Shown here: positions 12,040-63,907 of the stretch, piece after piece
Position numbering within the stretch: position 1 is the first letter of the stretch
How the letters are laid out: every line of letters begins with the position of its first letter
From: Schaalia odontolytica
GTDB lineage: Bacteria; Actinomycetota; Actinomycetes; Actinomycetales; Actinomycetaceae
Length of the DNA: 64,000 nucleotides
Direction: 5' to 3'
NCBI RefSeq assembly: GCF_009730335.1
Contig: NZ_CP046315.1
Location: 434,001 to 498,000 of the forward strand
The notes under the pieces: model-generated
What the model was told of the DNA's origin: nothing
Seen by the model: only the letters and a program-made list of their open reading frames with translations
Database searches by the model: none
Position numbers and translations under genes: made by a program

Positions 12040-12246
12040 GTGGGCTCCTGGAGTAGGTGGGCGTTGCCGGTGTTCCCATCTGGGGACAGTGCCAAGGTAG
12101 CGACCTTGCTCGCAATTTTCTAGGGATGAAGGCGGTGAAATTGCGTGCTGGGACGGTTATGGTGGCCTTCGAAGGGAAAACGCACCTCGTGACTACCCGT
12201 CCGGTAATATTGTGCGGGTCACTATCAAGAGTCAATGGAGCAATTG

Positions 12247-12573
12247 ATGAGCGATCTTCATTTCGTCGCCGGCGAGTTTCGTCGTCTTGCGTCGACGGCC
12301 CGCGACGTGGCGGATGCTGTTCGGCAGGCTCGTCCTGATGGAGGGGCCAGCGCCTTTGCCTCCGCAATGCCGGGTGCGGAGCTCACGTCACTGATGCAGA
12401 GCGTCGAAGAGAAGTGCGTGGACACGTGCACGGTGCTCGGACGAAACTTGGATAATCACGCTGATTCCCTCGACGCTGCCGATAGGGACTTCATCGCTAC
12501 CGAAGAAGACAATGGTCAGCTCATGTCCTCGATCATTCGGGGACTTGGCTTTGGGGGCGTGAGCGAACGATGA
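12247..12573 (+). CDS. WXG100-like small helical protein
   Basis: The product is 108 residues from ATG 12247, six bases after GGAG. It is predicted all-helical with an ESAT-6/WXG100-like size and heptad pattern, but the canonical WxG is absent. Two cysteines sit close together (EKCVDTC). Its ATGA overlap with the next gene indicates translational coupling. Such proteins commonly precede DUF1023 hydrolases in actinobacteria and may be partners or targeting domains. No type VII secretion core gene is visible in the window. Confidence 0.6.
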   Translation: MSDLHFVAGEFRRLASTARDVADAVRQARPDGGASAFASAMPGAELTSLMQSVEEKCVDTCTVLGRNLDNHADSLDAADRDFIATEEDNGQLMSSIIRGLGFGGVSER

Positions 12574-14177
12574 AGTGGGCTGATCTGCGTCAGTGGCAGA
12601 TGGGGCCGCTCAGCGAGCAGGCTCGGTCTTATGCGGACAAGCAGCGGGTACTTGCGCAGGCCGGTGACGACCTGCGCGCCGGAGTGGATGCTCTGGGCGG
12701 CGTCGGTCGGACGGTTACCGCGGCTCAGGCTGCCCTTCGCCAGGACGCGGCCGAGATAGCGAAGCAGGAAGATAAGCTGGGCGCGCTGAGTGACGTCCTG
12801 TCGTTCGCCGCGCATGGAGTCGCGAGCATTTGTTCGGCAGTGGCGAGCGCGGAAGCAGCTGCCGCCCGCAATATGCTGGCCATTCACCCGGATGGTTCCA
12901 TCGGGTATGTCGGCCCCATGGAGGTCTCGAAAGACGACGCGCGCCGGATTCGCCAGTCGATGAAGCAGCTGGCCGATCGCGTCGCAGAGATCCTCCGTGC
13001 AGCGCGGGACATGGTGAGCGAGATACGGTCGAAACTGCTCGCCCTATCGATGCCCGGCGTAGCCGGAGCGCTGGGTGCAGTGGCGTCCATCGGCAAAGAC
13101 TCGTCGCCGAAGCTGCCCCCGCCGGGCGCAACGGCGAAGGAAGTCGCCAAGTGGTGGTCCTCGCTCACCCCGGAGCAAAAAGAAAAGCTCATCAATGAGC
13201 ACCCGTATGAGATCGGCAAGCTTGACGGTGTCGACGGGACGTCGAGGGATAAGGCAAATCGCCTCGTGCTCGACATCGAGCTGCCGAAACTCGAGGCTGA
13301 ATACGAGGAGTATAAGAAGAAGGTCGGCCTGATCATTGACCCGTTCGAGGCTGCAACTCTCAAGAAGCTCAAGGAGCGAGCAGAAGCCGTCAGGAACATC
13401 AGAACAACGCTGGATCGCTCGGACGAAGACGGTATGCCTCGTCAGCTTCTGGGGATCGACACCTCTAACCCGCGCGTGACGGCGATCGTCGCACAGGGAA
13501 ACGTCGATACTGCCAAGCACATTGGTGTCATCGTGCCGGGACTGTACTCGAACGTGGCCAACAACCTGGATGACTACGATGACAAGGCCTCCGTCATGGG
13601 TGCGAACGTCCGCAAGCATGCCCACGGCGAGGAGGTTGCGATGGTCTCTTACCTTGGCTACGACGCGCCACAGAATAAGATCGAGGCAGCGATGATCCGC
13701 AAAGCGGATGCTGGCGCCAAGCAGCTCGCTGGCTTCTTGAATGGCATGCACGCGTCGCGTGAATACGGTGCGGGCGACGCGCACGTGACCGCCGTGACCC
13801 ACTCCTACGGGTCGACGACTGCTGGAAAGGCGCTGACGATGACCGACAAGGGAGCCGTCGATGATCTCATCCAGTTTGGCTCCCCAGGGTCCGGCGTCCA
13901 GAGCGTCGACGAGTTCCATCTCGAAAAGGGGCACGCCTGGGTGAGCGCGGCGCCGTATCGAGAAGACATCGTTCAAGGCCTCGGTGATGACGGACGATAC
14001 GGTAAGAATCCTGCCAAAATGCCCGGCTACAACCACCTCTCTGGGGATGTCGGCCCCGGTGAGGGATGGTTTGTACCCTTCCGGAAACACAGTTCCTACT
14101 TCAACGAGGGGAGCGAGGCGCTCGACGACATTTCGAAGGTCGTTGCGGGGCGCGGCGTGCCAAGGAGTACGCGATGA
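12570..14177 (+). CDS. Alpha/beta hydrolase of the DUF1023 type with helical N-terminal domain
   Basis: The product is 535 residues. The first ~200 are helical and Ala-rich (SEQARSYADKQRVLAQAGDD). The C-terminal half is a DUF1023 alpha/beta hydrolase: IGVIVPGLYSNVANNL, then the nucleophile elbow THSYGSTTAGK near residue 415 and a late GYNHLSGD segment that can supply the catalytic His. Substrate is unknown. The helical-domain plus hydrolase arrangement is seen in secreted or surface toxin-like proteins, and the downstream gene would fit an immunity role. Secretion is inferred only; no signal peptide is present. Confidence 0.78.
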   Translation: MKWADLRQWQMGPLSEQARSYADKQRVLAQAGDDLRAGVDALGGVGRTVTAAQAALRQDAAEIAKQEDKLGALSDVLSFAAHGVASICSAVASAEAAAARNMLAIHPDGSIGYVGPMEVSKDDARRIRQSMKQLADRVAEILRAARDMVSEIRSKLLALSMPGVAGALGAVASIGKDSSPKLPPPGATAKEVAKWWSSLTPEQKEKLINEHPYEIGKLDGVDGTSRDKANRLVLDIELPKLEAEYEEYKKKVGLIIDPFEAATLKKLKERAEAVRNIRTTLDRSDEDGMPRQLLGIDTSNPRVTAIVAQGNVDTAKHIGVIVPGLYSNVANNLDDYDDKASVMGANVRKHAHGEEVAMVSYLGYDAPQNKIEAAMIRKADAGAKQLAGFLNGMHASREYGAGDAHVTAVTHSYGSTTAGKALTMTDKGAVDDLIQFGSPGSGVQSVDEFHLEKGHAWVSAAPYREDIVQGLGDDGRYGKNPAKMPGYNHLSGDVGPGEGWFVPFRKHSSYFNEGSEALDDISKVVAGRGVPRSTR

Positions 14178-14248
14178 GGGAGTCGATGAACGATATCCTG
14201 GCAGCTGTGGCGGCGCACGTATCTGGTGCCGCGTTTCGAGGAGAATAA
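14174..14248 (+). CDS. Possible 24-residue peptide between hydrolase and next gene
   Basis: ATG 14174 overlaps the hydrolase stop in an ATGA junction and the frame stops at 14248, three bases before the next ATG and in the same frame as it. It may be a coupling peptide, or the remnant N-terminus of the following protein cut off by a TAA. There is no independent evidence that it is translated. Confidence 0.3.
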   Translation: MRESMNDILAAVAAHVSGAAFRGE

Positions 14249-14251
14249 CGG

Positions 14252-14770
14252 ATGAATTCGGAACAGAAGGAACTGCTCGCTCGAGCGTCACGCATGGAGT
14301 CGATCGAGGCCTTCCAGCGCGACGTCGAGCCGGCGATCATTGCTGCCCGCGATCAGCTGATGACGCGGGAGAACTATCGCGGCTACTACCGCAACGATGT
14401 GATCACCAGGAACAACGTCGGCGACCATGTCCTGTACGCCTTCATCTCGCGCAGCTACGACTTCGACGAGCACGACCCTATTCGCGTTCGCGACGTGTTT
14501 GATGCCGCGCTGGCCCCTCGCGGTTTCGTGTGCAGTGAAAAGGCGGACGTCCTGCAGGACGGGACGACGGACACCGTGTTGATCTGGGGTAGCGAACGCT
14601 TCGGTGCGACCGTCCACGTCATGGTGTCCGAGAGCTGGCTGACGTCCGTCAACTACTACACGGATCCCCTGCTCAGCGACGGGTCCGTGGGTGACCCGAA
14701 GATGCTCATGGAGCTGCCCGGCCGCATTCCGCAGTGGTTCCTGGACGTTGCCGCAGGCACGCAGTCGTGA
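14252..14770 (+). CDS. Hypothetical protein, possible immunity protein of the hydrolase
   Basis: The 172-residue soluble acidic protein starts at ATG 14252, eight bases after GAGGAG. I recognise no named domain with confidence; DUF4853-type proteins of actinomycetes are a candidate. Visible blocks are SMESIEAFQRDVEP-like helices, GDHVLYAFISRSYDF and a C-terminal LPGRIPQWFLDVAA. It has no signal peptide or membrane segment. Its position directly after a toxin-like hydrolase is the only support for an immunity role. Confidence 0.5.
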   Translation: MNSEQKELLARASRMESIEAFQRDVEPAIIAARDQLMTRENYRGYYRNDVITRNNVGDHVLYAFISRSYDFDEHDPIRVRDVFDAALAPRGFVCSEKADVLQDGTTDTVLIWGSERFGATVHVMVSESWLTSVNYYTDPLLSDGSVGDPKMLMELPGRIPQWFLDVAAGTQS

Positions 14771-14801
14771 CGAGATCCAACTCAGCAACCTGCTAGATGA
14801 C

Positions 14802-14843
14802 GAAGGGGGGGGCGGCGCTCGATTGAGCGCCGCCCCCCCCTTC
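14802..14843. terminator. Bidirectional terminator, 19-bp perfect stem
   Basis: Arms at 14802-14820 and 14825-14843 include runs of eight G and eight C and enclose GATT. It separates two convergent genes. Confidence 0.85.
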
Positions 14844-14874
14844 GCAACCCGCGTGAGCGGGCACCATCAGAGCG

Positions 14875-16548
14875 TCAGCCGTTCAGGGCGTCGGACACGA
14901 CCTGCTTGGCGGCCTCCTGGACCTGGGCCAGGTGCTCGGCACCCTTGAAGGACTCGCCGTAGATCTTGTAGACGTCCTCGGTGCCCGACGGGCGAGCTGC
15001 GAACCACGCGGACTCGGTCGTCACCTTCAGGCCGCCGATGGGCGCGTCGTTGCCGGGCGCGCGCACCAGCTTCGCGACGATCGGGTCGCCGGCCAGCTCG
15101 GTCGCGGTCACGTCGTCCGCGGACAGGGCCGCCAGCTTCGCCTTCTCCTCGCGGGAGGCAGCCGCGTCGATGCGGGCGTAGGCGGAGGCGCCGAAACGCT
15201 CGACCTGCTCCTCGTGCAGCTGGGAGGGGGTCTTGCCGGTCACGGCCAGGATCTCCGAGGCGAGCAGCGCCAGGATGATGCCGTCCTTGTCGGTCGACCA
15301 CACGGTGCCGTCCTTGCGCAGGAACGAGGCTCCCGCGCTCTCCTCGCCGCCGAAACCGACGGTACCGGACAGCAGGCCGGGGACGAAGTACTTGAAGCCC
15401 ACGGGCACCTCGATGAGGTCGCGGCCCATGGTGGCGACGACGCGGTCGATGAGCGCGGAGGACACGAGGGTTTTGCCCACGGCCGCGTCGGCGTTCCAGC
15501 CGGGGCGGTGCGTGAACAGGTACTCGATGGCGACGGCCAGGAAGTGGTTCGGGTTCATCAGGCCGTCGGGGGTGACGATGCCGTGGCGGTCCGAATCCGC
15601 GTCGTTGCCGGTCGCGATGTCGTAGGGGGTGTTTCCCTCGGCGTCGGGGGTCATGGCCTCGCGCAGGGACGCCATCGCGTAGGGCGAGGAGCAGTCCATG
15701 CGGATCTTGCCGTCCCAGTCCAGGGTCATGAACGGCCACGCCGGGTCGACCTCGGGGTTGACGACGGTCAGGTCGAGGCCGTAGTGCTCACCGATGGCCG
15801 CCCAGTAGTCGATGGACGCGCCGCCGAGCGGGTCGGCGCCGATGCGCACGCCCGCGTTACGGATGGCCTCGATGTCGATGACCTGGTCGAGCTGCGAGAC
15901 GTAGTAGTCCAGGTAGTCAAAGGGCTTGATATTCGGGTCGTGCAGCAGATCGGAGCCGGTGACGCGGGGAACGTTCTTCCATTCACCCGAGTCGAGGAGC
16001 TCATTCGCGCGCGCAGCGATCCAGCCGGTTGCGTCGGTATCGGCGGGGCCGCCGTGAGGCGGGTTGTACTTGAAGCCGCCGTCGCGCGGGGGGTTGTGGC
16101 TGGGGGTGACGACGATGCCGTCGGCCAGGCCGTCGCCCTCGGTGCGCAGGTTACCCGGGGCGCCGTTCGCGCCGAGGATGGCGACGGACACGGCGGGGGT
16201 GGGCGTGTAGGAGCCGCGCGAGTCGATGCGCGTGTCGATGCCGGCGGCCGCGAGGACCTCCAGGGCGGTGCGCCACGCGGGCTCGCTCAGGGCGTGGGTG
16301 TCGCGGCCGATAAACAGAGGACCGTTGAAGCCCTGGGAGGCGCGGTACTCGATGATCGCAGCGGTGATGGCGATGATGTGCGCCTCGTTGAACTTGGCGT
16401 CCAGCGAGGATCCGCGGTGACCCGAGGTGCCGAACGCGACGCGCTGTCCCACGTCGGTCGGGTCGGGCACGATGTCGTAGTAAGCGGAGATGACATCGTC
16501 GACGTTGATGAGGTCTTCAGGTAGGGCACGTGTGCCAGCTCGTTCATG
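14875..16548 (-). CDS. pgm: Phosphoglucomutase (alpha-D-glucose-phosphate specific)
   Basis: The 557-residue enzyme interconverts glucose-1-phosphate and glucose-6-phosphate, linking glycogen or cell-envelope sugar synthesis to glycolysis. The catalytic phosphoserine loop TPSHNPP sits near residue 145. FGTSGHRG near residue 40, the metal-binding DxDxDRHG-type loop (NDADSDRHG) and the late phosphate-binding [11 protein letters not shown] are all present. Length is normal for the pgm2-type bacterial enzyme. ATG 16548 is preferred, although its ribosome site is weak. Confidence 0.95.
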
Positions 16549-16800
16549 CATAGGGACAGTGTTGCACGTTACGTCCCTTTGTGTGTAGCACCGTCCCACG
16601 GCGTGGACTTTTCCTTGTTTTCTCTTGTTCGAGGCCGTGGCTGGGAAGGTGAAAAAGGCCAGGTGAGAGCGGGGGCGGCCCCGGCCTCGTCCCCGGGGAA
16701 GAAATAGGGATATGCACGTTTTCCCAAAATCGGCGCCGAGCGACTATCCTATGAGATGTCGGTCACCGCAGACCGTGACTGTGTTGTCAGGAGGAACATC

Positions 16801-18141
16801 GTGGGATGGTTTGATTCCATCGAACATAACCGTTGGCTGAGCGGCCACATGCAGGCACTCATTGAAGAGGCAGAAGGCGCGATCGTCGCGACTGGTTTCG
16901 CGCACCTCGATGCCGATGGAAAGCCCGATCTGACCCGATCGATTGACCTGGCCGTCACTGGTCGCATGGCCTACGTGTTCTCGCTGGGCGCGCTCATGGG
17001 GCTGCCCGGCACTCGTCGCTACGCCGACCACGCCGTCAAGGCGCTCACCAACTGCTTCACGGACCCCGTCAACGGCGGCATGTGGTTCGCGATCAAGCCC
17101 GAGCCCGATGCCGACGGTCACGGCGTACCGTGGGACGAGGATGCGCGCGTCAAGTCGCAGTACCACACGGTGTACGCGCTACTGGGCGTCGCCGCTGCGA
17201 CGGTCGCAAACCGCCCCGGAGCCCACGAGTTGCTCAACCGCATGCTTGAGGAGCAGAAGGAGCTCTGGACCGACGACTTCGGCCTCGTGTGGGATCAGTA
17301 TGACGAGGCCTTCAACGAGCCCGTCCCCGTCCACACCCTCGGCACCCTCATCCACACGATCGAGGCCTACATGGCCGCGGCCGAGGCGACAACCGAGCCC
17401 GAATGGCTCGACCGCGCCGAGAAGATGACGGCCTTCGCCTACAAGATCGCCTCCAAGAATGGCTGGCGCATCCCCGAGTATTTTGACGAGAACTGGCAAC
17501 CCAGCCCCGAGGCCGGCAAGCTCCTCAACGACGGACGTCGCTACTACGAGGGCTACGTCACTGGCCACTCAATGCAGCTTGCGCGCTTCGCGCTGCAGGT
17601 GCGTGCCGGCCTGCGCTCAATGGGGTGGACCGTGCCCGACTACCTCCTCGAGATGGGAACCGAGCTCTTCGAGCGTGCCCGCGTCGACGGCTGGCGTCGC
17701 ACCGACGGCAATCCCGGCTTCTCCACAGGCGTCAACGACGAGGGCGACCCCGTACCCGGCGAGGACGAACATCAGCAGTGGGTCGTCTGCGAGGGCGTGT
17801 GTGCCACCGTCGCCGTGCGTCGCGCCATGCTGGACGACGGCGCGCGCGTCTCCGACGTCGAGCACTTCGAGCACTGCTACCGCTCCTTCGTCGACTACAT
17901 CCACGACTACCTCATCAGCCAGCCCGGTCGGTGGGTGCGTCGCCTCGGCCCCTGTAACGAGAACGTGCAGCCTGCGAAGTCGTCGCGCTGGGACGTCTAC
18001 CATGCCGTCCAGGCGACGCTCGCGATCCGCCTGCCGCTGTGGCCCCCGACGGCCCCCGCGCTCTCGCGCGGCCTCCTTGACCGCCCCGAGGAACCGGCCC
18101 CCGACAAGAAGTCCTGGAACTTCTTCGGGCTGCGCGGCTGA
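16801..18141 (+). CDS. AGE-family sugar epimerase/isomerase
   Basis: The 446-residue protein starts at GTG 16801 behind a strong AGGAGG. It has the (alpha/alpha)6-barrel signature of N-acylglucosamine 2-epimerase/mannose isomerase proteins: RMAYVFSLGALMG, an arginine-histidine pair set (VKSQYHTVYAL), GHSMQLARF and late EHQQWVVCEGV and RWDVYHAVQATLA segments. Members interconvert mannose/fructose, mannose/glucose or N-acyl hexosamines. Substrate cannot be assigned here. A repeat element (16628-16691) lies in its upstream region, shared with divergently oriented pgm. Confidence 0.82.
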   Translation: MGWFDSIEHNRWLSGHMQALIEEAEGAIVATGFAHLDADGKPDLTRSIDLAVTGRMAYVFSLGALMGLPGTRRYADHAVKALTNCFTDPVNGGMWFAIKPEPDADGHGVPWDEDARVKSQYHTVYALLGVAAATVANRPGAHELLNRMLEEQKELWTDDFGLVWDQYDEAFNEPVPVHTLGTLIHTIEAYMAAAEATTEPEWLDRAEKMTAFAYKIASKNGWRIPEYFDENWQPSPEAGKLLNDGRRYYEGYVTGHSMQLARFALQVRAGLRSMGWTVPDYLLEMGTELFERARVDGWRRTDGNPGFSTGVNDEGDPVPGEDEHQQWVVCEGVCATVAVRRAMLDDGARVSDVEHFEHCYRSFVDYIHDYLISQPGRWVRRLGPCNENVQPAKSSRWDVYHAVQATLAIRLPLWPPTAPALSRGLLDRPEEPAPDKKSWNFFGLRG

Positions 18142-58833: not shown

Positions 58834-60519
58834 TTACTCCTGCGGGGCGATCGAGCCGGGCAGGTCGGAGAGGATCTTGCGGGCGCGCACGACCAGGTCG
58901 GAGACCTCGGGCTCGGCCAGGGCCGGGTCCTCAGCTTCGACGACGGGGATGCCGCGCATCGCGGTCTCGGTGCGGGGTTCGGGCGAGGCCTGGGGGACCT
59001 CGGTCGACTGGGTTGTTTGGGCGGGGGCGGCCTCCACGCGGGTGGTCGCCGCGTCGAGGGCGGCCTCGGCCGGGTCGGTTTCCTCGGGTTCGGAGGCCTG
59101 CTGAGCGTCCGAGGTCTGCGCCCCGGCCTCGTCGGAGGTGCCGAGTGGGTGCCACGCGGGGGCCGAGGCGGACCCGGTGGGGGAGATGACCTCGTCGAAG
59201 GAGGCGGGCAGCGCCGAGGGGATCGGGCCGAGGAGGGCCTTCGGGTCCTCGGGGTTGGCTTCCAGGGAGGCGGCGATGATCGCGGCCGAGGGGTTGGGTG
59301 CGTCGAGCGCGACCCGGCCGTTCGTCAGGAGGATTGCGCGGTCGGAGGCAGCCGCGACCTCGGCGTTCGGGGTCGCGATGACGACCGCGCAGCCCGCGTC
59401 CGCGAGGGAACGCAGGAGGGGGCCGAGTTCTTCGCGCGCAGCGGCGGGCAGGGAGACCGGGTCTTCGATGAGGAAGACCTCGGCGCCGGACACGATCGCG
59501 CGGGCGATGAGGGCCTTGAAGCGCTCCCACTCGGAGAGCTCGGAGGGGTGGACCTCGACGCGCTGGGCGAGGCCCGTGATCTGCAGGGCGCCCACGAGGT
59601 TATCCCAGTCGGCGACGGAGCCCGTCGCGGACAGGGGCGCGAGGATGTTCTGGCGGATCGTCAGGGACTCGTCGAGCGGGGAGTCCGCGCGGATCAGCGC
59701 GACCGAGCCGATGCGGCCGGCGAGGCGCGCGGCCAGCGAGCGCGAGGGGGCGGCCACGATGCGGCCGGCCTGCGGCTCCTCGAGGCCCGCGAGGATCAGG
59801 AAGAGAGCGCGGGCGCGGCGGCCCGTCGGGTCCAGGATCGCGCTCAGCGAGCGGGCGCGGAAGCCCAGGTCGATGTTCGCCAGGAGGACCGCGCCGGTCA
59901 CATGGTCCGTGTAGGTCAGGCCCAGGCCGGCGACCTGGACGCGGCCGCCGCTGCCCTTCGCGGAGAAAGAACGACGCGAGCGGTACCAGGGGCGAGGCTC
60001 GGCGGGCGGCAGGTGCACGGGGGCGGCGATGGCGTTGTTGACGTTCGTTGATGCGGTGTTGCCCGTGGTGTTGGTGCTGTTGGCGGGCGTGAGCTCCTGG
60101 GCAGGCTGCTCGGGATCGGCCTGCGGGGTCGCGGTCTCGGGCGCGATGTCGCTGGCGGTCTCCGCTGTGGTCTGTGCTGCTGCCGCCGCGTCGGTGGTGA
60201 GCGCGGCGGGGGAGGCCTCGGCCTCGTCGGTTGTGACGAGGGGAGTGGAGGACGCGAGGGGCTCCTGCAGGTCCTGCGCGCCGTCGTCGGCGAGCGTCTC
60301 TGCGGGGGTGTCGGCGGTGGGGGCGTCGGCCTCGTGGGTGGTGCCGCTGAGGATCTCCTCGAACGACGAGAGGGCGCTGCGTGGGGCGGGCGCCTCGTCG
60401 GAGGTGTGGGCGGGGGTCGAGGCGGCTCGCTCGGCGCCGGCGCGCGCGGCGTCGGCCGTCACGTCGGCCAGCTCCTGGCTGTCCGAGCCATGCAGGTTTT
60501 CACGCGGGTCATTCGACAT
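58834..60519 (-). CDS. ABC-ATPase-like protein with degenerate catalytic motifs and long disordered arms
   Basis: The 561-residue protein has ~185 disordered residues, a ~240-residue domain resembling an ABC ATPase, and a disordered C-terminal arm. The fold is recognisable (VQVAGLGLTYTDHVTGAVLL, PQAGRIVAAP, ITGLAQRVEVHPSELSEWER then FKALIARAIV). Walker A is ILDPTGRRARALF, without GK[ST]. The signature is LSEWE, and Walker B ends FLIEDPV rather than DEP. ATP hydrolysis is therefore unlikely, and a structural or regulatory role is more plausible. There is no membrane segment. TSDEAGAQ in the C-terminal arm is encoded by a dispersed repeat copy (59120-59133). Confidence 0.65.
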   Translation of the reverse strand: MSNDPRENLHGSDSQELADVTADAARAGAERAASTPAHTSDEAPAPRSALSSFEEILSGTTHEADAPTADTPAETLADDGAQDLQEPLASSTPLVTTDEAEASPAALTTDAAAAAQTTAETASDIAPETATPQADPEQPAQELTPANSTNTTGNTASTNVNNAIAAPVHLPPAEPRPWYRSRRSFSAKGSGGRVQVAGLGLTYTDHVTGAVLLANIDLGFRARSLSAILDPTGRRARALFLILAGLEEPQAGRIVAAPSRSLAARLAGRIGSVALIRADSPLDESLTIRQNILAPLSATGSVADWDNLVGALQITGLAQRVEVHPSELSEWERFKALIARAIVSGAEVFLIEDPVSLPAAAREELGPLLRSLADAGCAVVIATPNAEVAAASDRAILLTNGRVALDAPNPSAAIIAASLEANPEDPKALLGPIPSALPASFDEVISPTGSASAPAWHPLGTSDEAGAQTSDAQQASEPEETDPAEAALDAATTRVEAAPAQTTQSTEVPQASPEPRTETAMRGIPVVEAEDPALAEPEVSDLVVRARKILSDLPGSIAPQE

Positions 60520-60582
60520 GCCCCCATTGTTTCAGGATCGTGTCGATTGTGTCGTAATGGCACGCGGAAGTGGGTGGGGTGA

Positions 60583-60588
60583 TACGTT
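60583..60588 (+). promoter_or_regulatory. Candidate extended -10 (TGATACGTT) for the CRISPR-repeat-like RNA
   Basis: TGA precedes TACGTT, matching an extended -10. No good -35 is seen. Transcription from here would start near 60595 and read through a GCGACCGCGGTCGC palindrome (60613-60626) into the first repeat-like hairpin. Confidence 0.3.
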
Positions 60589-60627
60589 TGTGAGGTCCTG
60601 CGAGTGCTCGACGCGACCGCGGTCGCG

Positions 60628-60652
60628 GTGTTCCCCGACAGGGGATGATCCC
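60628..60652 (+). repeat. Degenerate type I-E CRISPR-repeat-like unit 1
   Basis: GTGTTCCCCGACAGGGGATGATCCC-type sequence, 25 nt. It matches the type I-E repeat plan: a GTGTT start, a CCCC/GGGG stem and the 8-nt handle ATGATCCC common in actinobacteria. The loop region is 4 nt shorter than in a 29-nt repeat. Confidence 0.6.
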
Positions 60653-60672
60653 GTGTAGTGCATCAGGAGGAC

Positions 60673-60700
60673 GTATTCCCCGCGAAAGCGGGGATTTTTC
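60673..60700 (+). repeat. Degenerate type I-E CRISPR-repeat-like unit 2 / intrinsic terminator
   Basis: GTATT, then CCCCGC-GAAA-GCGGGG, then ATTTTTC. It has the full 8-nt inner region of an I-E repeat, but the 3' handle is replaced by a T-run. Confidence 0.65.
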
Positions 60701-60745
60701 TATTTGAAGACGGGTGAATGAAATCCTGTCTGCAATATCGAGAAC

Positions 60746-60759
60746 GTGTATTGTATAAT
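60746..60759 (+). promoter_or_regulatory. cas operon promoter -10 (TATAAT) overlapping the pseudo-spacer match
   Basis: TATAAT at 60754-60759 is a perfect -10. No clear -35 lies 17 bp upstream (TGCAAT). The pseudo-spacer match starts at 60746. A guide-directed Cascade here would block RNA polymerase. Confidence 0.55.
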
Positions 60760-60776
60760 AGAATTTCTTCTGTTAT

Positions 60777-60850
60777 GGTTACTCCATCACCTCCGAGGGG
60801 GTGGTGACAGCTCCGCTGGTGCTGTCGGGCTCAACATTTTCAGAGTAACC
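60777..60850 (+). other. Structured 5' leader of cas3
   Basis: GGTTACTC (60777-60784) and GAGTAACC (60843-60850) form an 8-bp closing stem. Inside are a hairpin with TCACC/GGTGA arms (60787-60807) and CAGC/GCTG (60808-60824), a three-way-junction layout. Whether it regulates translation is unknown. Confidence 0.45.
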
Positions 60851-60913
60851 GCATGAGCTCATGCTAGTGCGCATGCCGTACTCAGAGGATGGTTTCGACT
60901 CAAGGAAGAGGAA

Positions 60914-63907
60914 ATGGCCCGAAAAGACAGGCAGAGAGTTTCGTTATCGACGCCAGCAACTGCGGAACCCCCAGTTTTCCCTGCCGCCCAGCCTGGCCTC
61001 GGTGCTGCTGATCTCTCCGAAATGGCCAGGAGTTTCTGGGCGAAGAGTGGAGACTCCGGCAGCTGGCTATCCGTCGTCCAGCATCTGATGGATGCCGCTG
61101 ACGTTGCTGGATTCCTCTTCGATGACTACCTGAGCGAGCATCATCGCAGGCTCATGGCCTCGGTCTGGGGAGGAGATCGCGCCAAGGCTCGGGCCTCGTT
61201 TGTGTTCCTCGCAGGGGTGCACGATGCGGGCAAAGTGAGTCCCCAGTTCGCATGCCAGCGCCAAGATCTGGCTCAGCTGATCCGCAGCGAGGGGCTGGTC
61301 GTCATGCGCAAAGCCGACTACGCTGAACGTTCCTTCCTTCCCCATGGCCTCGTCAGTCAGTTTGCGCTTCAGGAGGAAATAGCTGCGGGTGGCGGTGATG
61401 GATCCCGGGCTCTCCAATGGGCGATCCTCGTTGGGGTGCACCACGGTCGATACCCGGACGCAGGTGCCGTGTATGTCGCACGACAGCAGTACAAGACGCA
61501 AGAAGGTTCGCGTGAGGATGATCCCCGTTGGGGTCAGGTTCGCTCGGAGATTCTTCGATGGATGGCTGCGCGCAGCGGTTTCCCGCTCGTTGCACCCGGA
61601 ACTGCCCTGCCGGAGCTGCCCATCGCAGTGGCATCCGCCTATGCCTCGGCCCTCGTGATCGCAGACTGGCTCGCTTCCAACGAGGATTACTTCCAGCTTC
61701 GACCTCGACCGGTCGATGAGGCTGGAAAGCTGTCGATCGATGGGTACCCCGAGCTCACTGCGAATCAGCAGCGCGATCGTGTCCGGCGCGCATGGAAGCG
61801 AGCGGCCTTCCCAACCCCTCTGCGTATTCCTACAACGCCGAGCGATGAGGTCACAGACTTCTACCGTCACCGTTTCGGGTGGCCGGCCTCGTACTGTCCG
61901 ACCGAGGCCCAGCGCGCCGCCATTGAGATTGCAACACACGAGGACCCGGATCTCATGATCGTCGAGGCTCCGCCGGGGTCCGGGAAGACTGAGCTAGCCT
62001 TCGCGGCCGCCGAGGTTCTCATGCGCGCTCGGGGGCTGCAGGGGGTGTTTGTTGCGCTGCCCACGCAGGCCACGACGAACGCGATGTTTGAGCGCGTCAC
62101 CGCCTGGCTGACGAGCATTCTGGGCGATGAACCGCAGAAGCTTGGCATCCAGCTCGCGCACGGAAAAAACAGCCTCAATGAGTCCTTCGTGAAGCTCCTC
62201 GCGCGCGGCAAGAGCCCCCTTGAGGTGCATGATGATGAGGAAGACCTCGGTCTATATGCGAGCCGATGGATGGGTCAGCGGTGGCGCTCGACGCTGTCGC
62301 CGGTTGTGGTTGGCACGATCGACCAGGTGTTGCTCGCAGCCCTGAAGTCGCGTCACGTGCTGGTGCGTCACCTCGGGCTCATGGGCAAGGTCGTCGTCAT
62401 CGACGAGGTGCACGCCGCCGACGAATACATGGAGACGTACCTGGAAGCCGCCCTCACATGGCTCGGTATGTACGGGATCCCCGTCGTGCTGCTGTCGGCT
62501 ACCCTGCCGCCCGCGCGGCGTCTTGCTCTCCTGAACGCGTATCGCCGCGGCCGTGGTTCGTCGGGCGTGAGCGCTGAGTCGGTCGATGTCATGATCGGCT
62601 ATCCGGCTATTTCAACGGTCTCCGCCGCAGGCGTGCGTGTTCATGAAATTGTTGGTGAGGCTGAGGTCCCCAAGCGGATCATCCCGACCTCGCTCGGCTC
62701 GCCGCTGGAGATCGCGGAGCTTCTGGACCGCGAGCTCGCCTACGGTGGATGCGCAGTCGTCATCCGCAATACGGTCCGTGAGGCCCAGGAAACATACGAG
62801 GCTGTGAGGTCCGTGTTTGGTCGTGAGCAGTCGACCCTGTTGCACTCGCGTTTCCTGGCCGCCGAACGTGCCGCCCGCGATCGCCGCATGCTCGAACTTT
62901 TCGGGAAAGATAGTCAGCAACGCCCCTTCAGGCACGTTGTCGTGGCAACGCAGGTGATCGAGCAAAGCCTTGACGTCGACTTCGATCTAATGCTCACCGA
63001 CCCCGCGCCCATGGACCTCGTGCTGCAGCGTATCGGGCGGCTTCACAGGCACGACAGAGCCGAGCGGCCAAGTGGGCTTCGTGGTGCCAGGTGCCTCTTG
63101 ATTATTGAAGACATGACTTCCGATCCCTGGGCATACTCTCGTGGCACCGACTACGTGTACGCGCGCTACGCCGTCCTGCGGACCCTGGGGATCATCGCTG
63201 GTCGCGGAGAAATACTCGTCCGTGAACCGCGGGACTACGCGGAATTGACAACTCTGGCGTATGACGATGATACGCAGGTCGGTCCCACGCCGTGGCGCGA
63301 GGCCTTCGATGCGGCGTTGGAAGAGCGAGATAAAGCACGCGCCCAAGCGCAAGCGAAGGCGACCACCTGGTGTCTCGGCGAAGAGAACACACCCTCCTGG
63401 CAGTCCCTCGAACTCGAAGAAAAATTCCTCGGCAATGCCACGACCGGTGACGAATCAAAGGGACCGGGAGTCGCAGCTGCCCGCGCTGCCGTGCGCGATG
63501 GAGAAGACCAGATCCCCGTCCTCGTTGTCGCCCTCGACCCCGAGCTGGGCAACGTACCAATGGCTCCTCCCATCAGCGGGGCGCCAGAAGGTGACACGCC
63601 TCTCGCAGTCGGTGAATACAACGCACGAGGGCGTATCGCCGACATCTGCTCGTGGAGCATCTCACTGCCGCCGTGGGCATTGCGCGCTCGCGGGCAGAGC
63701 ATCGACGAGGCGGTGGACGCAGTTGCAGGTGCTATCTGGGATGATCCCATCACGACGGAATGGTCGTGTCGCGAGCATCCGTTCCTGGCGGGGGAACTGA
63801 TCCTCGCGATGTACAAAACTCCCGACGGGGAGCGCCTCACGCGCGACCTGTGCGGACACACATTCACATACTCTCTCGAAAGAGGAATGGAGGTGCAGGG
63901 CCAATGA
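60914..63907 (+). CDS. cas3: CRISPR-associated helicase/nuclease Cas3 (type I-E)
   Basis: The 997-residue protein starts at ATG 60914 after AAGGAAGAGG. The N-terminal HD nuclease shows GVHDAGK near residue 101 and VGVHHGRYP further on. The SF2 helicase follows: Walker A APPGSGKTE near 352, DEVH (VVIDEVHAADEYME) near 495, LSATLPP near 527 and motif VI QRIGRLHRHDR near 704. A C-terminal domain follows. Cas3 is recruited by Cascade bound to target DNA and degrades it. It overlaps the next gene in ATGA and belongs to a canonical I-E order (cas3-cse1...). Confidence 0.96.
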   Translation: MARKDRQRVSLSTPATAEPPVFPAAQPGLGAADLSEMARSFWAKSGDSGSWLSVVQHLMDAADVAGFLFDDYLSEHHRRLMASVWGGDRAKARASFVFLAGVHDAGKVSPQFACQRQDLAQLIRSEGLVVMRKADYAERSFLPHGLVSQFALQEEIAAGGGDGSRALQWAILVGVHHGRYPDAGAVYVARQQYKTQEGSREDDPRWGQVRSEILRWMAARSGFPLVAPGTALPELPIAVASAYASALVIADWLASNEDYFQLRPRPVDEAGKLSIDGYPELTANQQRDRVRRAWKRAAFPTPLRIPTTPSDEVTDFYRHRFGWPASYCPTEAQRAAIEIATHEDPDLMIVEAPPGSGKTELAFAAAEVLMRARGLQGVFVALPTQATTNAMFERVTAWLTSILGDEPQKLGIQLAHGKNSLNESFVKLLARGKSPLEVHDDEEDLGLYASRWMGQRWRSTLSPVVVGTIDQVLLAALKSRHVLVRHLGLMGKVVVIDEVHAADEYMETYLEAALTWLGMYGIPVVLLSATLPPARRLALLNAYRRGRGSSGVSAESVDVMIGYPAISTVSAAGVRVHEIVGEAEVPKRIIPTSLGSPLEIAELLDRELAYGGCAVVIRNTVREAQETYEAVRSVFGREQSTLLHSRFLAAERAARDRRMLELFGKDSQQRPFRHVVVATQVIEQSLDVDFDLMLTDPAPMDLVLQRIGRLHRHDRAERPSGLRGARCLLIIEDMTSDPWAYSRGTDYVYARYAVLRTLGIIAGRGEILVREPRDYAELTTLAYDDDTQVGPTPWREAFDAALEERDKARAQAQAKATTWCLGEENTPSWQSLELEEKFLGNATTGDESKGPGVAAARAAVRDGEDQIPVLVVALDPELGNVPMAPPISGAPEGDTPLAVGEYNARGRIADICSWSISLPPWALRARGQSIDEAVDAVAGAIWDDPITTEWSCREHPFLAGELILAMYKTPDGERLTRDLCGHTFTYSLERGMEVQGQ

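Follow-up and report, generated by a model that had tools for sequence, protein, structure and literature searches.

Cas-regulating crRNA-like RNAs (CreRs; Liu et al., 2023) are presented in the pertinent passages of three reviews, either for type I and type V-A systems or in general terms (PMC12737573; PMC12948488), and as mediators of autorepression in types I-B, I-E, and V-A (PMC13131331). For archaeal CreA, the passages on pairing in PMC8501985 describe an experimental mapping in which base pairing was needed at guide positions 1–5 and 7–11, positions 6 and 12 were idle, and any change among the ten seed bases abolished function. For the type I-E system of E. coli, the corresponding passages of PMC5904413 state that 5 bp are enough for Cascade binding and that more than 18 bp are needed for interference; as a caution, limited Cascade binding in that study left the expression of nearby genes unaltered. 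A 2025 review of actinomycete CRISPR-Cas systems does not use the term CreR in its text (PMC12231136), and a Schaalia genome paper, in the part concerned, reports arrays and cas genes and nothing further (PMC11131293). Among literature titles and the opening lines of abstracts, a scope outside which the tables of the primary CreR paper fall, no actinobacterial CreR appears.

Here we analyze the region upstream of cas3 in a 64,000-nucleotide stretch of the Schaalia odontolytica genome (the window) and describe a mini-CRISPR whose guide is very probably aimed at the cas3 promoter, forming a brake that Cascade would apply to its own operon through limited pairing of the CreR/CreA type (Table 1). 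As in described CreRs, a degenerate repeat, a pseudo-spacer, and a second degenerate repeat adjoin a cas operon that shares their CRISPR type, here a type I-E operon (cas3-cas8e-cse2-cas7e-cas5e-cas6e-cas1e-cas2e by NCBIfam) that lies nearly entirely past the window edge. The type I-E array repeat of the host genome is GTTTTCCCCGCGTGAGCGGGGATGAGCC, and 88 array units, each with 21 or more of the 28 bases identical, follow one another at a 61-nt period on the same strand, past the cas operon and outside the window, 9.5 kb downstream of the two upstream repeat-like units and with spacers mostly of 33 nt. This array, at 12244–17578 of locus L002, contains 88 repeats and 87 spacers, 71 of them distinct, indicating that blocks of spacers were duplicated.

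Table 1. Features of the guide locus and the cas3 promoter region, in window coordinates.
Feature	Position	Strand	Remarks
Putative extended −10 of the guide RNA (TGATACGTT)	60580..60588	+	Predicted transcript start near 60594
PsiR1, first repeat-like unit	60628..60651	+	GTGTT-CCCC-GACA-GGGG-ATGATCC; Cas6e-type hairpin and 5′ handle
Pseudo-spacer	60652..60672	+	21 nt including the variable eighth base of the handle; guide position 1 is 60653
PsiR2, second repeat-like unit	60673..60699	+	T-run at end; also terminator-like
PAM of the target site (AAC)	60743..60745	+	
Target, protospacer seed GTGTATTGTATAA	60746..60758	+	Covaries with the pseudo-spacer
Probable −35 of the cas3 promoter (TTGTAT)	60751..60756	+	Within the target; TTGYAT-17-TATSGT conservation, by eye
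Probable −10 of the cas3 promoter (TATGGT)	60774..60779	+	Deduced from conservation and spacing
cas3 mRNA leader	60786..60913	+	Two adjoining hairpins; conserved GGGCTCAACAtTTTCAGAGTAACC segment
cas3, 997 aa	60914..63907	+	First gene of the operon; NCBIfam

Comparison with the array repeat confirms both units, which the original prediction had placed at the correct coordinates, as degenerate type I-E repeat copies, each related to the genomic repeat. By eye, PsiR1 retains GTGTTCCCC-loop-GGGGATGATCC with a four-base GC stem, 2 bp shorter than that of the array repeat; it keeps the handle ATGATCC, and its hairpin is present in the predicted fold. PsiR2 is identical to the array repeat at 21 of 28 positions and carries a complete hairpin (CCCCGC-GAAA-GCGGGG) followed by a T-run, making it the sole terminator-like site of 60500–60920, where shuffled sequences lead to an expectation of 0.4. 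The gap between the units is short, as had been claimed, but amounts to 21 nt rather than 20 when the eighth handle base is counted. Folding of the predicted RNA (60592–60701), in which both hairpins form, was beaten by 1 of 200 shuffles (z = −3.6), and GTGATACGTT and the adjoining GGTCCTGC are conserved in five aligned close genomes.

The guide GTGTAGTGCATCA and its target are identical at positions 1–5, 7, 8, 10, 11, and 13 behind the AAC PAM, in agreement with the positions originally listed; the mismatches claimed at 6 and 12 are present, but position 9 is a true mismatch as well. The pattern GTGTANTGNATNA occurs at four sites in the genome, two of which are the pseudo-spacer and the target; the other two have no AA PAM. 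Dinucleotide-shuffled versions of the region upstream of cas3 reach 10 matches in 14 positions in 9 of 300 cases, so the window match is by itself weak evidence, and it is the relatives that decide. The guide reads as the sense strand ahead of the inferred transcription start, and so would pair with template DNA and not with cas3 mRNA. Such a partial, PAM-flanked match of the guide 5′ portion to a cas promoter, here a promoter recognized by conservation and left unmatched at position 9 in the window, is what characterizes a CreR. With respect to the PAM, comparison of the 5.4-kb array with 50,697 phage records yielded no match to its spacers, and the first base after the repeat-like units is biased (G 42, C 31, T 14, and A 1 over 88 intervals, including the 9.5-kb gap after PsiR2), which lends the PAM only indirect support. 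The region upstream of cas3 had no match among plasmid records.

The original prediction had placed the target over a TATAAT −10. This hexamer (60754–60759) was rejected as the cas3 −10 because it is unconserved among relatives. Since the arrangement TTG(T/C)AT, 17 nt, TAT(G/C)GT is common by eye to the window, G038, G011, and G042, the target most likely overlies the −35 hexamer of cas3. No site passed a sigma-70 scan. Judged by eye, the match in G007 and G009 starts about 25–30 nt 5′ of TTGACG or TTGACA, a distance at which a Cascade-sized footprint would still reach these hexamers, and the best −35 candidate in G008 starts some 40 nt past guide position 1. In the hairpins of the cas3 leader, three pairs are changed on both sides across four sequences, a count made without a control, and a 24-nt leader segment occurs in 4 of 35 genus genomes, one copy each, when up to 3 mismatches are allowed. 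At the gathering score Rfam recognizes no family in L002, the cas3 leader included, and its sole match on 60500–60930 is RsmY, far below the cut-off.

A Cas3 search of the 35 genus genomes gave matches in 18 at E ≤ 1e-30 and in 11 at 53% identity or above, the window's own genome included. Nine of these 11 close genomes (the window, G038 from the same species, G011, G042, G022, G006, G008, G007, and G009) carry a repeat-like hairpin and handle and, behind them, a guide matching and covarying with its own downstream site, before cas3 in seven and before a small ORF in two. The nine are partly dependent, four of them forming one close group, so that the following counts are not independent. All 81 cells for positions 1–5, 7, 8, 10, and 11 are matches, mismatches fill 14 of the 18 cells for positions 6 and 12, about as unconstrained bases would give, and position 9 is mismatched in four genomes (the window, G042, G008, and G009). 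Sites were picked as the best over 14 positions, a choice that biases toward matches overall and not toward mismatches at 6 or 12. Apart from position 9 in these four of the nine genomes, the loci obey the pairing rule of archaeal CreA; the exception speaks against a working guide, given that CreA tolerated no seed change. The target PAM is AAC in seven genomes, AAG in one, and TAC in one.

When the guides and regions of the nine genomes and of the targetless G044 are crossed in a 10 × 10 table, own pairings in the nine reach 10–13 of 14, pairings between different lineages 6–9, and those inside the close group (the window, G038, G011, G042, and G044) 7–11. In all nine the own pairing gives the highest score of its column, tied solely with sister guides, and the own score is equalled in 0 of 300 shuffles for seven genomes and in 1 of 300 for G038, with the window at the 9 given above. 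Guides diverge widely between lineages and the match to the own region persists. Within the window, G038, G011, and G042, guide and promoter change in concert at positions 1, 4, and 5 (positions 1–5 read GTGTA in the window and G038, ATGCG in G011, and ATGTA in G042), while at position 9 the promoter base varies and the guide base stays constant. The pseudo-spacer does vary among relatives, and the target changes along with it. Repeat relationship, register, PAM, limited pairing, and co-variation are evident at the sequence level, and the repeat kinship and co-variation support the originally proposed CreR-type self-repressing guide, an idea that is largely right. Its proposed aim at the cas promoter holds in seven close genomes and not in two of the 11 (G022 and G006), where another site is matched.

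Counted with the eighth handle base, the interval between the units is 21 nt in the window, G011, and G042, 22 nt in G009, 23 nt in G007, 33 nt in G038, G022, and G006, and 34 nt in G008. The G038 interval differs from that of the window by one 12-nt block and one base; 12 nt corresponds to two 6-nt Cas7 steps, a step size that may be relevant. A T-rich tail 3′ of the second hairpin is present in four genomes (the window, G038, G011, and G042) and absent from the remaining five of the nine guide-bearing genomes, so that termination at the second repeat would be a trait of the close group. The handle-plus-hairpin scan covered 33 loci, 11 close and 22 more distant (two of the latter with less than 400 nt to scan); it missed G011, which has an A/T-richer stem and whose unit was found by eye, and under the strict handle it returned no full-seed own match in the 22 distant loci. 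A Cas3 match at E ≤ 1e-60 is present in 72 of 213 family genomes, most of them outside the unit scan.

Several genomes depart from this arrangement. In Actinomyces sp. HPA0247 (G044, L048) the first unit and guide persist, but second unit and target have been lost, and the best site is no better than chance (equalled in 203 of 300 shuffles). Schaalia suimastitidis (G048, L051) has no repeat-like unit upstream of cas3. In G022 and G006 (L005 and L006) some 500 nt separate the target from cas3, and the target precedes a small ORF that has a good ribosome site; in G006 there are two targets in tandem. This part of the two loci covers roughly the stretch between 500 and 130 nt ahead of cas3. The encoded products are of 67 aa and of 30–31 aa, the latter hydrophobic; against Pfam, the 67-aa ORF shows a weak Ada zinc-binding resemblance below the cut-off (E 0.02) and the 30–31-aa ORF gives no match. 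These ORFs are candidates for CRISPR-guarded small genes. G020, whose genome yields no Cas3 match, keeps the guide and both repeat-like units (L142, G020:C3, around 189362–189457), with the TG of the guide-RNA extended −10 replaced by AG. Its second unit is intermediate between PsiR2 of the window and an array repeat, and because it resembles a fusion with an array repeat, the cas operon looks to have been deleted by recombination of the second unit with the array. Over a 3.1-kb stretch of G020 there is no further full-seed match, and sites with an AA PAM reach at most 5 of 10.

Beyond these genomes, 6 of 79 named loci with a Cas3 relative, some of them from genus genomes already counted, contain a hairpin-handle candidate with a guide that has a match beside an AA PAM in its own region, compared with a mean of 0.65 loci (range 0–3) in 20 replicates with permuted regions. 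The six belong to Lentzea, Amycolatopsis, two Actinokineospora, Gordonia, and a Kineosporiaceae MAG. By eye, a small membrane-protein-like ORF follows the unit in the Lentzea, Amycolatopsis, and Actinokineospora loci (L055, L059, L066, and L098); the target precedes the unit in L055, L059, and L098 and in L066 follows it on the other strand. A Pfam scan of the small ORFs in L055 and L059 gave no match. In L094 (Gordonia asplenii) and L102 (the Kineosporiaceae MAG), the guide match is upstream of the unit on the opposite strand.

We propose the following course of transcription, processing, loading, repression, and release of repression. The segment 60590–60700 would encode a short crRNA-like guide RNA, transcribed toward cas3, which Cas6e would cut at the first repeat-like hairpin, after GGGG, leaving the predicted 5′ end ATGATCCC; its 3′ end would lie at the second hairpin, here also terminator-like, or be produced by a cut within it. 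Cascade loaded with this RNA would be led to the cas3 promoter and, by pairing over about ten bases beside the AAC PAM, across the −35, could block RNA polymerase. Pairing of this order would let Cascade bind but be too short to engage Cas3, so that the chromosome would stay uncut. The cas operon would thereby repress itself, and ordinary crRNAs or anti-CRISPRs that draw off Cascade would lift the repression.

Other explanations account for parts of these data. The window locus could be a dead relic of a former array with a match that no longer functions, and the mismatch at position 9, a guide of 21 nt that is 12 nt shorter than that of G038, the 33 nt and full pairing at 1–5 and 7–11 in G038 itself, and the decay seen in G044 are what such a history would leave. 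A relic is nevertheless improbable, as guides of 21–23 nt are found in five of the nine genomes, position 9 is mismatched in four of the nine, and the window guide matches at ten other positions. That the promoter site and pseudo-spacer form a direct repeat could also mean that they are paired operators of a DNA-binding protein, yet a protein site should stay constant, and here the sequence changes and the match persists. The match, moreover, always lies 8 nt behind a repeat hairpin, the handle CC precedes the guide in all nine genomes, and the target has an AA PAM in eight of nine, rendering the operator explanation highly improbable.

A CreTA-like arrangement, in which the guide mainly restrains a toxic leader (a rare-codon mini-ORF plus hairpins) and cas3 is simply co-transcribed, would make sense of a frame that ends in GSTFSE or GSTISE before the stop in the window, G038, and G011 and in SSTFSE in G042. 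The mini-ORF consists of minor codons (TCA 3.4, ACA 5.8, and TTT 3.4 per 1000 in 25 long window ORFs), the cas3 leader does contain hairpins, and the targets of G022 and G006 precede a small ORF. However, the start is inconsistent (GTG in the window and G038, GTG or ATG in G011, and solely an inner TTG in G042), the mini-ORF has no pair of adjacent minor Arg or Ile codons such as known CreT carries, and in G008, G007, and G009 a promoter candidate lies, by eye, close before cas3, and we consider this arrangement quite improbable. The preferred and very probable reading is a self-brake on the cas operon. A wider proposal holds that one module has been re-aimed within the genus, serving at the cas3 promoter as a self-brake and at promoters of small, possibly toxic ORFs as a guard, and that the window combines both; the module would then act in type I-E actinobacteria as a general Cascade-guided repressor that can be re-targeted. 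This proposal seems rather unlikely to us; if it were true, the repressed transcript of the window would open with a minor-codon mini-ORF leader before cas3.

A natural series of guides and targets that co-vary across one genus makes the evolution of Cascade autoregulation directly testable. The series covers a same-species pair with 21 and 33 nt, a decaying case, a guide keeper without Cas3, and re-aimed cases, and it bears on the minimal guide length and on the interconversion of cas self-control and CRISPR-guarded small genes. Its mismatch pattern also displays the pairing rule of Cascade from sequence alone.

Among known systems, the loci resemble CrePA, a CRISPR-repressed protein toxin, in the passages available on it, through the proposed Cas-guided gene repression by a crRNA-like RNA; they differ in that no protein toxin gene is recognized between the target and cas3 in the window, and among the nine genomes a small ORF behind the target is seen solely in G022 and G006. 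With CreA, as portrayed in parts of PMC8501985, they share two divergent degenerate repeats, PAM-side pairing at 1–5 and 7–11, and, as proposed here, Cascade-mediated transcriptional repression, and a terminator in place of the second repeat is likewise described there; CreA, however, represses the small RNA toxin of CreTA, whereas the promoter targeted in the window leads to cas3. Compared with CreRs, the second repeat is terminator-like in the close group of the window, the guide is 21–23 nt in five of nine genomes, and another promoter is targeted in two relatives. None of this amounts to a decisive difference, and a Schaalia or Actinomyces host is absent from the CreR passages of the reviews. 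As in the CreRs those passages describe, a predicted mini-CRISPR RNA partially matches a cas promoter, and with CreRs of type I-E already reported, the loci described here join a known kind.
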